Positions 22,435 through 27,602 of a DNA stretch of 64,000 nucleotides are shown one piece after another. Position 1 is the first letter of the stretch, and every line of letters begins with the position of its first letter. Source of the DNA: Halodesulfovibrio sp. (lineage in GTDB: Bacteria > Desulfobacterota > Desulfovibrionia > Desulfovibrionales > Desulfovibrionaceae); assembly GCF_015482765.1 (NCBI RefSeq), contig NZ_JADMLB010000017.1, positions 62,001 to 126,000 on the forward strand. Direction: 5' to 3'. A program made the position numbers and the translations under genes. The notes beneath the pieces are model-generated. The model was not told the origin of the DNA and ran no database searches. It saw only the letters and a list, made by a program, of their open reading frames with translations.

Positions 22435-22502
22435 CAATTTTGACAAAATTGTATATTTTGACCAAAAATACCAATTTAAAATTGTCAAATTTGACAAAAT
22501 TG
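22435..22502. promoter_or_regulatory. Cluster of four palindromic sites upstream of amtB
   Basis: Four dyads in 68 bases: CAATTTTGACAAAATTG (22435-22451), TTTTGACCAAAA (22456-22467), CAATTTAAAATTG (22472-22484), and CAAATTTGACAAAATTG (22486-22502). A perfect TTGTCAAATTTGACAA spans 22482-22497. They lie 57-125 bases upstream of the sigma-54 promoter, the usual place for an enhancer-binding activator, or could bind a repressor or nucleoid protein. They do not match the E. coli NtrC consensus. Confidence 0.6.
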
Positions 22503-22558
22503 TAAAAAACAAAAAGTCAGAAAAAGTATGAATTGAGTAAAACCAAGTAGTTATGTTT

Positions 22559-22577
22559 TTGGCACAGACCCTGCTTT
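22559..22577 (+). promoter_or_regulatory. Sigma-54 promoter of amtB-glnK
   Basis: TTGGCACAGACCCTGCTTT has GG at 22561-22562 and GC at 22573-22574 with the obligatory ten bases between, close to the TGGCAC-N5-TTGCW consensus. Transcription should start near 22585, about 27 bases before the amtB ATG. This fits nitrogen-responsive control by an NtrC-type activator. Confidence 0.8.
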
Positions 22578-24440: not shown

Positions 24441-25259
24441 CTAAAGGTGCAGCAGGTTGGAGACCAGTTTTCTGATGTGATCTAGAGGAAGTGTTTTATC
24501 TGTCCATAAACGGAACTGTTCTGCGCCTTGAGCAGCAAACATGTGTAACCCGTCTATAGTTTCCCATCCGGCAGCAGCTGCCGTGCGGAGAAAGGCTGTT
24601 TCTAGTGGATTGTATACCAGATCATACGCAACGCCTGTTTCGCTGAACATGTCAGCTTCATACGGTGTTTTTTCAACGTGTTCGCCAGCCATTCCCATTG
24701 GAGTGGTGTTAATGATCAAATCAGTGTCTACAGTACCGCGAGATTCCCAATCAACAGTTTTGACCGAGAATTGTTCAGCCAGCTTTTCTGCACGTTCTGG
24801 GGAGCGGTTGCAGATTGTGATATCTTCAACACCGAGCTCCTGTAATCCGGCAAGAACAGCTTTTGCGGCGCCACCGGCACCAAGCACGAGGGCTTTAGAG
24901 CCTTTGTTTTCGCGTGTTGTTAATGGCTGCATGAAACCGAGTACGTCTGTATTGTCGCCCACAAGTAGGTCATTTTCCCAATAGAGCGTATTAACGGCAC
25001 CGACTTTCTGTGCTCTCGGAGTAATACTGTCCAGATAATCCATGACAGTTTCTTTGTGCGGAATAGTAACACTGGCGCCGTACATTGGCAGCTTGCGAAA
25101 GTTGTCCATAAACTCGCTAAGTTTTTCCGGAGGGGTAGGGAATGCCATATAAACAGCATCGAGGGAAAATTTATTGAACCCGCTATTGTGCAGAGCAGGA
25201 CTCATTGTGTGACCGAGTGGGTGGCCAATAATTCCGTAGAGTTTCTTATGTGCTGGCAT
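24441..25259 (-). CDS. aroE: Shikimate dehydrogenase
   Basis: 272 aa. It reduces 3-dehydroshikimate to shikimate with NADPH in aromatic amino acid synthesis. Substrate-binding sequences GHTMSPALHN and ASVTIPHKE (catalytic Lys), DNTDVLGF, the nucleotide-binding GAGGAAKAV, NRSPERAEKL and INTTPMGM are all present. The ATG has AAGGATG upstream. The mRNA should start within about 100 bases, because a strong - strand terminator at 25364-25397 isolates aroE from the transcripts farther upstream. Confidence 0.96.
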   Translation of the reverse strand: MPAHKKLYGIIGHPLGHTMSPALHNSGFNKFSLDAVYMAFPTPPEKLSEFMDNFRKLPMYGASVTIPHKETVMDYLDSITPRAQKVGAVNTLYWENDLLVGDNTDVLGFMQPLTTRENKGSKALVLGAGGAAKAVLAGLQELGVEDITICNRSPERAEKLAEQFSVKTVDWESRGTVDTDLIINTTPMGMAGEHVEKTPYEADMFSETGVAYDLVYNPLETAFLRTAAAAGWETIDGLHMFAAQGAEQFRLWTDKTLPLDHIRKLVSNLLHL

Positions 25260-25363
25260 TGTTCATCCTTCTTGGGCAACAAGTTGTGCATTGCGTTTAC
25301 TGTGTGCCTTGGAGTGTAGCCAAGAAAAATATGAACGTACAGTATGAGGGGAATGAAGAAGAC

Positions 25364-25397
25364 AAAAAAGCGGAGTGCCAGCCTAGCACTCCGCTTA
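25364..25397 (-). terminator. Intrinsic terminator of the small RNA candidate
   Basis: Stem 25368-25378 with 25386-25396 (AAGCGGAGTGC / GCACTCCGCTT), followed on the - strand by six T (25369-25364). On the + strand no T run follows, so it is directional. Confidence 0.88.
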
Positions 25398-25458
25398 AGA
25401 AATATGGGTTTGGGGAGCCACCCCTCGCCATGAAATACCTGTGAAAGAAAGAAGGTAC
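25364..25458 (-). ncRNA. Candidate sigma-54-dependent small RNA
   Basis: A near-perfect sigma-54 promoter on the - strand (25468-25484) and a strong - strand intrinsic terminator (25364-25396) delimit an independent transcript of about 95 nt with no convincing reading frame. The 5' end is a C/U-rich, probably unpaired run (CCTTCTTTCTTTC, complementary to purine-rich ribosome sites). A GC hairpin GGGG-UGGCU-CCCC (25412-25424) and the terminator stem follow. An AUG inside it opens a frame that would run through the terminator stem, so coding use is unlikely. Targets are unknown. I do not recognise it as a described RNA family. Confidence 0.6.
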
Positions 25459-25467
25459 TGTAACTGT

Positions 25468-25484
25468 AGCAACGAGTGTGCCAA
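25468..25484 (-). promoter_or_regulatory. Sigma-54 promoter on the - strand
   Basis: On the - strand: TTGGCAC-ACTCG-TTGCT. The -24 GG (25482-25481) and -12 GC (25470-25469) are exactly ten bases apart, and both elements match consensus almost fully. The expected start is near 25457. The next gene upstream on this strand, the acyl-CoA synthetase, ends 183 bases earlier. Confidence 0.82.
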
Positions 25485-25666
25485 CTTCTTTTTATTTTTG
25501 GTATTTTTTAAAAGTCCTGAAAAATCAACGCATAGCGGTATGGTGAGTATTTCTTCAAATACACGCGTGCGTAAAGGATTTTATACTTGGGAAAAAGCTT
25601 CCGCTATTATCAGGCGCTCTGTACAAAAAATTTGAACCGGTTTGGTTCGGTACAACAGCAATTGAC

Positions 25667-27403
25667 CTAATCTACGTATAGGTAGCGTTTAATTTTCTGA
25701 GTAGGGGTTTTCTCAAACGGCTCAGTTTGCTCAATTACTTTAGCAATACGTGAGAAGCCTGCCACCTTGCTGTTAACTGCGGTACGAATTTCTTCAAGTA
25801 ATTTAAGAATCTTTTCTTCAACTTTGGCAGCATGCAACGAGCCGTACTCTTCATCAATTTTGGCTCTGTCGAGGTGGATACGGGCAACAAGCTTTCTATC
25901 CTGTTCATAAACAATGGTTTCCAGAACCCAAGGAGATTGCATAATCATTCCTTCAAGTTCTTCAGGATAAATATTTTCTCCACTTGGGCCGACAATAACG
26001 TTTTTGAGTCGTCCTCTGATGTAAAGGAACTCGTCGCGGTCAAATTTCCCTAAGTCGCCTGTACGGAACCAGCCATCTTCTGTGAATACAGATTTCGTAA
26101 TTTCCGGAGCCTTATAGTATTCACGCATGATACTAGGGCCTTTTGCAAGGATTTCACCTTCACCGGTTTCCGGATGCGGGTTGTCGATTTTAAGCTCAAC
26201 GCCGCTGAGCTTATAGCCTGTAGAAGTCAGACGGGTTTGGGCGGGACCTGTTCCGGCAAGAAGCGGACTTGTTTCTGTTAACCCATATCCGATGGCATAT
26301 GGAAAACGGGCTTCTTTTAAGAATCGTTCAACTTCCGGTGCAATGGCTGCACCGCCGATACAGAAGACGCGAAGGCTGCCTCCAAAGGTAGCCAAAAGCT
26401 TTTTACCAGCAAGAGCATGCAGCTTAGGTCGGGCAACTTTGTACAGCATACGTTTTGCCCAGCTGCTGGTGAGTTTAGGTAGAATGGCTGCCTTAAATAT
26501 TTTTTCAATAACGAGCGGTACAGAGAGCATAACCGTCGGCTTTACTTGAGCCATTGCAGGAAGCAGTGCACGGGCTGTAGGCGGTTTATCCATGTAGTTG
26601 ATATGCGCACCGTTCATAAGCGGGAGGATAAGTCCCAGAGTACACTCGTAGGTGTGAGAAAGCGGCAGAATGGATAGCAGTCTGTCGCCGGGACCGACCT
26701 CTACAATGGAGCGGACAGCGTAGGCATTCGCAACAATGTTTTCATGTGTGAGCACAACGCCTTTGGAATGTCCTGTGGTGCCTGAAGTGTAGATAATAGC
26801 AGCTACATCATCAGGGGCAATAGAGTGTCCTCCAGAAAAGAGGCTGACACTGCCTTTAATCTTTTCTGCATGCTCGCGTTCAATAAATTTTTGAGTAAGG
26901 TCTCGCGCTTTATCCATGATGGAGCGAAATTCGCGCAAACCGGCTTTTTTAAGTTCCTTGAGCTTCTGCGGTTCTTCGTCAAACGCAACAGCGGTAAATG
27001 TTTCCATAAGAAACAGTTCTGGCGGAGTATCGTATTGTCCGTCTTCAACTTTGCTGAAGAGTTTTTGTGAGACAATAACGGCAGACGCTTCTGAGTGTCG
27101 GATGATGTGGTGAACGGCGTCAGGATGGAAGTCTGGCAGAATAGGAACTGCAACTGCTCCCATGGCGGTGATGGCAAAGTATGCGATCCCCCAGTTCGGA
27201 GTGCTTTCACTTAAGATGGCAACTTTATCTCCGGCAGAGATACCATGTTCTGCAAGAAGTCCCTGAAGCCCCTGAACGGCTCTGGCAAACTCTTTGTAGG
27301 TGATTGGTGCTCCGCCGACTCGTGAAAGTGCCGGTTGATCTGGGAACAGGTCAGCACTGCGTTCCAGCACTGCTGTAAGCGTATGTGTCGTAAGTGGGTA
27401 CAT
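25667..27403 (-). CDS. AMP-forming long-chain acyl-CoA synthetase-like protein
   Basis: 578 aa adenylate-forming enzyme. The AMP-binding P-loop YTSGTTGHSKGVVLTHEN, YGLTETSPLL, the hinge and ATP-binding GWFRTGDLGKFD, and a C-terminal Lys in FEKTPTQKIKRY are present, so it should be active. Overall form resembles long-chain fatty acid:CoA ligases (a cap insertion and a C-terminal GRLKNVIVGPSGENIYPEELE). It would activate fatty acids for lipid remodelling or degradation. The start ATG 27403 has GGAGC at good spacing; the frame is open seven codons further. It is monocistronic and lies downstream of no obvious partner. Confidence 0.88.
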   Translation of the reverse strand: MYPLTTHTLTAVLERSADLFPDQPALSRVGGAPITYKEFARAVQGLQGLLAEHGISAGDKVAILSESTPNWGIAYFAITAMGAVAVPILPDFHPDAVHHIIRHSEASAVIVSQKLFSKVEDGQYDTPPELFLMETFTAVAFDEEPQKLKELKKAGLREFRSIMDKARDLTQKFIEREHAEKIKGSVSLFSGGHSIAPDDVAAIIYTSGTTGHSKGVVLTHENIVANAYAVRSIVEVGPGDRLLSILPLSHTYECTLGLILPLMNGAHINYMDKPPTARALLPAMAQVKPTVMLSVPLVIEKIFKAAILPKLTSSWAKRMLYKVARPKLHALAGKKLLATFGGSLRVFCIGGAAIAPEVERFLKEARFPYAIGYGLTETSPLLAGTGPAQTRLTSTGYKLSGVELKIDNPHPETGEGEILAKGPSIMREYYKAPEITKSVFTEDGWFRTGDLGKFDRDEFLYIRGRLKNVIVGPSGENIYPEELEGMIMQSPWVLETIVYEQDRKLVARIHLDRAKIDEEYGSLHAAKVEEKILKLLEEIRTAVNSKVAGFSRIAKVIEQTEPFEKTPTQKIKRYLYVD

Positions 27404-27602
27404 GGGCGCTCCGTAAAAAATCATCCGTTAACAACAATGAATACTGTTCACTGCTAAACGAATTGTCTGTACGCGAAGATTGCGAACTCTGCAATGCTCC
27501 TCGGGGCTTTTCAGCTGTTCCTGTACCCGCGGCAATTGACCTTTTTGGCTCTTTGAGCATAAGAAAAAGAGTACAACATTATTTTGCAGAAAGGATAATC
27601 TC

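Follow-up and report, generated by a model that had tools for sequence, protein, structure and literature searches.

A multicopy family of predicted sigma-54-dependent small RNAs in Desulfovibrionales that probably pairs with porin mRNAs

Introduction

Porins set what enters the cell, and their synthesis is subject to control by small RNAs (sRNAs). In enterobacteria, the porin repressors MicA, RybB and OmrA/B pair near the ribosome site to stop outer-membrane protein synthesis; they are driven by sigma-E or OmpR and depend on Hfq. The LhrC family of Listeria consists of multicopy siblings with C/U-rich pairing motifs that are induced by cell-envelope stress, in Gram-positive hosts and under two-component control without sigma-54. 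The Qrr sRNAs of Vibrio have several sibling genes per genome, each with a sigma-54 promoter and upstream sites for one enhancer-binding protein (EBP); they are Hfq-dependent and their EBP site differs from the one described here. NrsZ is among the RNAs controlled by NtrC. To our knowledge, the cyanobacterial sRNA Yfr1 is not sigma-54 dependent.

According to the available text on Yfr1, this RNA is nearly universal in its group, and two porins have been shown to be its targets (PMC6778093). NcS25 of Burkholderia, another porin-regulating sRNA, is reported in the accessible part of its description as constitutively expressed (PMC10117139), and CJnc230 of Campylobacter jejuni is presented in the corresponding text as a 98-nt sRNA that needs RpoN and carries a putative anti-Shine-Dalgarno stretch, CCUU (PMC11187230). 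For Desulfovibrio vulgaris, the main text of Kazakov et al. 2015 includes four non-coding RNAs in the sigma-54 regulome (PMC4641369). The predicted sigma-54 ncRNAs of D. vulgaris Hildenborough lie near DVU0653, DVU0679 (identical to Dv_sRNA2), DVU2357 and DVU3282 (PMC4641369, PMC3333781, main texts). The one upstream of DVU3282 is assigned there to the DVU1419 regulon, which is annotated as an envelope stress response (PMC4641369), and Dv_sRNA2 is named by Rajeev et al. 2011 with its function given as unknown (PMC3333781, main text). Porins are not mentioned in the main texts of these two papers.

Results

A predicted small RNA gene between an acyl-CoA synthetase gene and aroE

The window analysed here is the whole stretch of 64,000 nucleotides presented above. 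On its minus strand, positions 25484-25468 read TTGGCAC-ACTCG-TTGCT with a GG-to-GC spacing of 10 bases (sequence inspection), as a preliminary description of this DNA had proposed; the motif, the alignments and the comparison across the family all support a sigma-54 promoter of the form TTGGCAC-N5-TTGCT at 25468..25484. If the start is placed at the A 13 nt past the -12 C, the predicted RNA comprises ~93 nt (25364..25456, minus strand), close to the ~95 nt first suggested. Within it we distinguish a putative 5' pairing region, ACCUUCUUUCUUUCA (25442..25456), a middle hairpin, GGGGUGGCUCCCC (25412..25424), which shows no change among six close homologues, and an intrinsic terminator (25364..25396) whose stem of 13 pairs spans 25396-25368 and whose U-run extends to 25364. 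The RNA is flanked on the same strand by genes for an acyl-CoA synthetase (25667-27424) and aroE (24441-25259), both names being backed by Pfam, and the 25259-25667 interval between them holds no likely gene, which bears out the earlier view that promoter and terminator follow each other with no gene in between. Between the RNA terminator and aroE, a stretch of the CTGTACnTTnnnTTTTTTCTTGGCTACACT type (25290-25345, minus strand) is conserved; it is probably the aroE promoter.

The features generally expected of a sigma-54-dependent sRNA gene are present, namely a -24/-12 box, the 10-base GG-GC spacing and upstream activator sites, and the RNA gene is free-standing and non-coding, with a terminator of its own. 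Its predicted fold has a z of -2.57. With one mismatch tolerated, the promoter motif has 4 matches in the window against 3.6 expected, 25484-25468 being the sole exact one; a terminator scan of 24500-26500 found 3 against 2.7 expected, the 25396-25368 stem being the longest by far. These two counts alone are within chance, and hence the significance of the locus rests on conservation and comparison. No Rfam family matched the window or 20 homologous loci at the gathering score, and the best match below threshold was to LhrC (RF00616; 24 bits, E 0.19, with a gathering cut-off of 110 bits). On all the evidence given below, we are highly confident that the locus is a real sigma-54 small RNA gene, whose transcription we infer from the sequence.

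Close homologues within the genus

A BLAST search of 59 genomes, 10 of which represent the window's own genus, recovered the region in six, the source genome included, and all six belong to that genus. A pattern scan of named genomes matched a single contig, one of Halodesulfovibrio spirochaetisodalis JC271. Aligning these homologues shows little or no variation in the sigma-54 box, GTACCTTCTTTYTTTCA or AGGGGTGGCTCCCC. In the upper terminator stem, one base pair reads C-G in three of the six and U-A in the other three, so that both sides change. A block 100-160 nt upstream is kept too, even in G007 and G008, whose farther-upstream sequence differs. The preliminary description had allowed for a reading frame conserved in relatives, but no frame is common to the six homologues, and the reading of the locus as a small-protein gene was rejected for this reason. 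As a separate observation, six genomes of the genus carry a conserved intergenic hairpin of the AAGCGGTGTGCTTTTGCACACCGCTT type downstream of an apparent infA (L051, L052, L053, L054, L055 and L056).

A family spread over the order

The six close homologues were built into a covariance model (R1), which was run on 288 genomes. The search in relatives that the preliminary description had recommended did yield further members: among 20 weaker places that were read, two (in G005 and G003) belong to the family. A weak group of matches within the genus (G004:C12 and others) was dropped, as it consists of a terminator-like hairpin only, without the promoter. A pattern free of any promoter element, combining the C/U tract with the loop GGGTGGCWCC, matched 12 places in 8 of the 288 genomes, and its reversed control matched none; each of the 12 has TGGCAY-N6-TGCT ~11 nt upstream. 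When promoter and tract were combined, 48 places were matched, distributed over 27 of 348 genomes searched within the order, with a single match for the reversed control. One of these matches (G000:C62:36780-36817) is a second copy in the source genome (L113; G000:C62:36764-36817, minus strand), which sits between a tsaC-type gene and NUDIX-glgA-glgB and is present in the five other genomes of the close group too.

Of 44 non-redundant copies, 42 have an A exactly 13 nt past the -12 C and 38 have a pyrimidine tract that begins at 14; the RNA therefore probably begins with the tract. One of the 48 pattern matches, G051:C25:57729, was rejected for its wrong spacing (the tract lies 7 nt past the C); it is counted among the 44 copies but was left out of R2, a sequence model of the promoter and 5' end built from 42 sequences. 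At E <= 0.1, R2 has matches in 315 of the 348 genomes. Many of the weak ones may be any sigma-54 promoter, and only genomes with a best E <= 1e-6 were therefore counted: these number 101 of 348, in 16 genera and three families.

From the R2 matches with E below 1e-6 outside the window's own genus, 20 regions holding 27 copies were read. All 27 copies, which represent ten other genera (three in families f3/f5), have the box, the A at +13, the pyrimidine tract and the hairpin, so that the module runs from palindromic upstream sites through the sigma-54 box, the A and the C/U tract to the hairpin. The U-run is weak in some of them, L217 and L220 for example. By a permissive criterion, which 34 of 79 mononucleotide shuffles pass too, 79 of 79 copies have a hairpin with a U-tract after it.

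The copies lie at several unrelated loci, one of which recurs across genera: a tsaC-type gene, RNA copies, a NUDIX gene and glgA. Names of neighbouring genes were tested for the source genome and judged by resemblance elsewhere; by this measure the copies in G003 and G006 seem to follow an acyl-CoA synthetase gene, like the window copy. Four of five regions in genus g8 have tandem copies, two or three of them at intervals of 284-389 bp. Within the arrays L201, L202, L203 and L205, every copy has its own sigma-54 promoter and upstream palindromes.

It is thus next to certain that the window RNA belongs to a multicopy family that extends across the order Desulfovibrionales. The family looks to be undescribed so far, since a search of the open literature, judged by title and start of abstract, returned no description of it. 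Matches to sX4 reported for O. alaskensis G20 in the available text of PMC11124144 come from tRNA sequences and were not counted in the family.

Palindromes upstream of the RNA genes

Two putative activator sites precede the window promoter on the minus strand: site 1, GGTTCAAATTTTTTGTAC (25621..25638), starts 155 nt upstream of the TGGCAC box and is kept in the close homologues, and site 2, GTATAAAATCCTTTAC (25571..25586; GTAAAAATTACTTTAC in relatives), starts 103 nt upstream of it. A palindrome of the type GGTTCAAA..TTTGNACC emerged from a Gibbs search of 46 upstream regions. For the relaxed form GGTNNAAA..TTTNNACC, 69 of 84 copies match at least 10 of 12 positions, whereas 20 Markov resamplings averaged 6.2 such copies and never exceeded 13; this score is partly circular because the motif was derived from part of the scored copies. 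Less circular is the fixed placing of the palindromes, whose centres cluster family-wide at -150 to -140 and -110 to -90.

A stricter search in six g8 genomes gave 9 sites, and its reversed control gave 6; the pattern alone thus proves nothing, and only the locations of the sites are informative. Five are at sRNA genes; of the other four, two fall within coding sequence, and the remaining two lie upstream of cheW and of a porin gene. The cheW site (L244 near 1500, G232) is directly upstream of the gene and may be a regulon member or chance. The corresponding search of the window's genus returned 8 rows against 6 control rows; of its sites, three belong to sRNA genes and two lie upstream of porins, while one falls in uvrC (on both strands) and one is unexplained. 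Besides sRNA genes, these searches therefore point to three places upstream of porin genes, which belong to DESULF_POR1 by NCBIfam.

Complementarity to porin mRNAs

DESULF_POR1 matches number 50 in 17 genomes; 49 start regions were extracted, the partial G004:C19:333909 being left out, and seven of the 49 starts, which were shifted from the model's start, are less certain. The C/U-rich 5' end had been thought able to pair with ribosome sites, and it is indeed complementary to the Shine-Dalgarno region of the porin mRNAs. Within the same genome, and with G-U counted, the predicted contiguous pairs number 26 in G254 and 24 in G260, two genomes of a single genus; G043, from another family, reaches 16, and the source genome 18, where the second copy meets the leader of porin G000:C12; the window copy matches that same leader across 12 nt, AAAGAAAGAAGG. 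Past the Shine-Dalgarno core, the porin leader covaries with the RNA genus by genus, UCAGCAAAA going with UUUUGCUGA and AAUCGCAAAA with UUUUGCGAUU.

The porins were compared with 86-194 background genes per genome; a simple rule set the start codons of these genes, and individual ones may be misplaced as a result. No background gene pairs as strongly as the best porin in G238 (141 genes), G254 (98), G043 (100) and G093 (86), that is, 0 of 425. In the source genome, the best porin (G000:C12) is equalled by 3 of 194; among the other porins, C39 and C24 are equalled by 8 and 9, and the remaining three by 25 or more. Taken alone, the window copy has C39 as its best porin, equalled by 4 of 186 background genes, and the second copy has C12, equalled by 0 of 186. 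Dinucleotide-shuffled RNA ends pair equally well in at most 6 of 300 cases for 12 of the 13 genomes in this test, and in 19 of 300 for G277 (G001, G004, G007 and G009 were left out). Complementarity beyond chance is hence kept across genera, as would be expected of porin-repressing base-pairing sRNAs, although it is weak in the source genome.

From these comparisons, we consider it probable that the family RNA acts on porin mRNAs. A possible extension, compatible with this but one that we hold with some reserve, is an sRNA with many targets, whose 5' tract is a general anti-Shine-Dalgarno element and whose porin targets are simply the best conserved. The three non-porin leaders that equal the best porin in the source genome are in keeping with it, as are seeds such as CCUUCCUCCUUUU, which we take to resemble the 3' end of 16S rRNA; moreover, the cognate RNA is often equalled in pairing by RNAs from other genomes, above all for porins of the window's own genus. 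Breadth of this kind accounts poorly for pairing that runs past the Shine-Dalgarno core into covarying sequence, and for a best porin that stands above all background genes in four genomes.

Palindromes at porin genes and the search for a regulator

With the motif fixed beforehand, the palindrome (at least 10 of 12 positions) precedes 23 of the 49 porin genes; 60 resamplings gave 3.0 such genes on average and 8 at most. In nine of the 23, all from the window's own genus, it lies 57-64 nt ahead of the start codon. For the remaining 14 (in g5, g8, g14, g43 and g48) the distance is mostly 121-143 nt, and in the porins that were read the palindrome stands upstream of an apparent sigma-70 promoter (by eye). 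Given that RNA promoters and porin genes have the palindrome in common, one regulator may act on porins both directly and via the RNAs. An unlikely variant is that the regulator bound at porin genes works via sigma-70, the RNA genes being served by another activator whose site is similar. At porins such as that of G022 the site is ~27 nt upstream of a sigma-70-like -35 box (by eye), a position from which ordinary activators work; against this, the same motif occupies two preferred positions in RNA promoters, which need an EBP.

The source genome has 38 matches to PF00158, 36 of them very strong. Among 40 neighbourhoods of copies, one contains an EBP gene (found by motif), against ~5 expected by chance on our own estimate. 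At 30 of the 38 PF00158 loci, two palindrome-like sites were seen (12 and 13 of 14 positions), and both were set aside, as neither is arranged as at the RNA genes. An EBP gene of the source genome with a nearby sigma-54-like box and a palindrome site of 13/14 was noted at L150 (G000:C8:5576-6076), 2992 and 3389; the layout there does not resemble that of the RNA genes. On a 7-kb contig, a DESULF_POR1 porin gene adjoins an enhancer-binding protein gene (G000:C64:234-1616 and 2100-2600). The source genome, which is 99.97% complete, has no match to the Hfq model PF17209, against 5 positives among 14 control genomes, E. coli included; the proposed pairing would consequently need to function without Hfq.

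The preliminary description had linked the RNA to nitrogen, formate or other activator-driven regulation, and had pointed to a sigma-54 promoter at amtB in the same window. A sigma-54-like promoter is indeed seen there, TGGCACAGACCCTGCT (22560-22575, plus strand), preceded by TTTGACAAAATTG repeats within 22440-22575, which are probably the sites of another enhancer-binding protein. That the sRNA is nitrogen- or formate-responsive, like NrsZ or other NtrC-controlled RNAs, is suggested by the presence of amtB with its own promoter 3 kb off, but we regard it as improbable: the amtB upstream region has this different motif and none of the palindromes of the sRNA promoter, a scan of the window for the palindrome shows only the sRNA site and one other place, 16604, and the palindrome is common to porin genes instead.

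We reject, as having very little chance of being right, the idea that the sigma-54 promoter drives aroE with the hairpin as attenuator, since copies occur without aroE: the RNA does lie on the same strand 105 nt upstream of it, and aroE is the adjoining downstream gene in all six close homologues, yet the terminator is strong and the module stands at many places with no aroE beside it, among them the tandem arrays and tsaC-[sRNA]-NUDIX-glgA.

Discussion

We propose that the window RNA belongs to a family of trans-acting base-pairing sRNAs, switched by an EBP and sigma-54, that lowers porin translation, and we consider this reading as a whole to be likely. It draws on features visible at the level of sequence: the module and its conservation, the copies and tandem arrays, the palindrome at RNA and porin genes, and the covarying complementarity. 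A putative EBP would bind the palindromes ~90-160 nt upstream and, once bound, would open the sigma-54 promoter; presumably sigma-54 and one EBP drive all the copies. The resulting short RNA would have a single-stranded C/U tract at its very 5' end and the terminator hairpin at its 3' end. The tract may then pair with DESULF_POR1 outer-membrane porin mRNAs at their Shine-Dalgarno region, and such pairing would block ribosome entry and lessen porin synthesis. The effect on porins is accordingly expected to be repression, and the signal would be an envelope condition. More tentatively, and with somewhat less than even confidence, we suggest that in Desulfovibrionales sigma-54 fills the role that sigma-E has in enteric bacteria, with a single envelope-sensing EBP that would bind one palindrome both at porin promoters and at the multicopy RNA genes and so control porins doubly, through transcription and through Hfq-free control of translation by a 5'-terminal anti-Shine-Dalgarno tract.

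If the proposal is true, it would provide a function, a target and a regulon logic for the sigma-54 ncRNAs of sulfate reducers, which were predicted earlier without a stated target in the main texts cited above. It would also mean a sibling sRNA family across a whole order, and short-RNA control of porins in a genome with no detectable Hfq. The host bacteria matter for corrosion, sediments and the gut.

Among known systems, MicA, RybB and OmrA/B share with the proposed RNAs the shutdown of outer-membrane proteins by pairing close to the ribosome site; their sequences are unrelated, and a place among Hfq-dependent sRNAs, which calls for Hfq in the host, is not indicated for the source genome. 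The LhrC siblings are likewise multicopy and have C/U-rich pairing motifs, but a covariance match of 24 bits against a cut-off of 110 places the window RNA outside that family. The Qrr sRNAs resemble it in having sibling genes, sigma-54 promoters and upstream EBP sites, and differ in sequence, hosts and targets; a Qrr match in Rfam, by which membership would be assigned, was not obtained here. As described in the available text, CJnc230 is also a short RpoN-type sRNA with an anti-Shine-Dalgarno stretch, but one that lies downstream of flgE, has a flagellar role and carries its pairing stretch between two stem-loops and not at the 5' end (PMC11187230). Yfr1, on the same basis, is wide in its group and has porin targets, but is found mostly at one conserved locus, guaB-trxA (PMC6778093). 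The D. vulgaris ncRNAs, compared by their description in the main text, are under four different EBPs and come without a stated target, family, pairing tract or porin link; like the family described here, they belong to the same order and are non-coding RNAs behind sigma-54 promoters with EBP sites (PMC4641369). The annotation of one of their regulons, that of DVU1419, as an envelope stress response fits the present porin and envelope reading.
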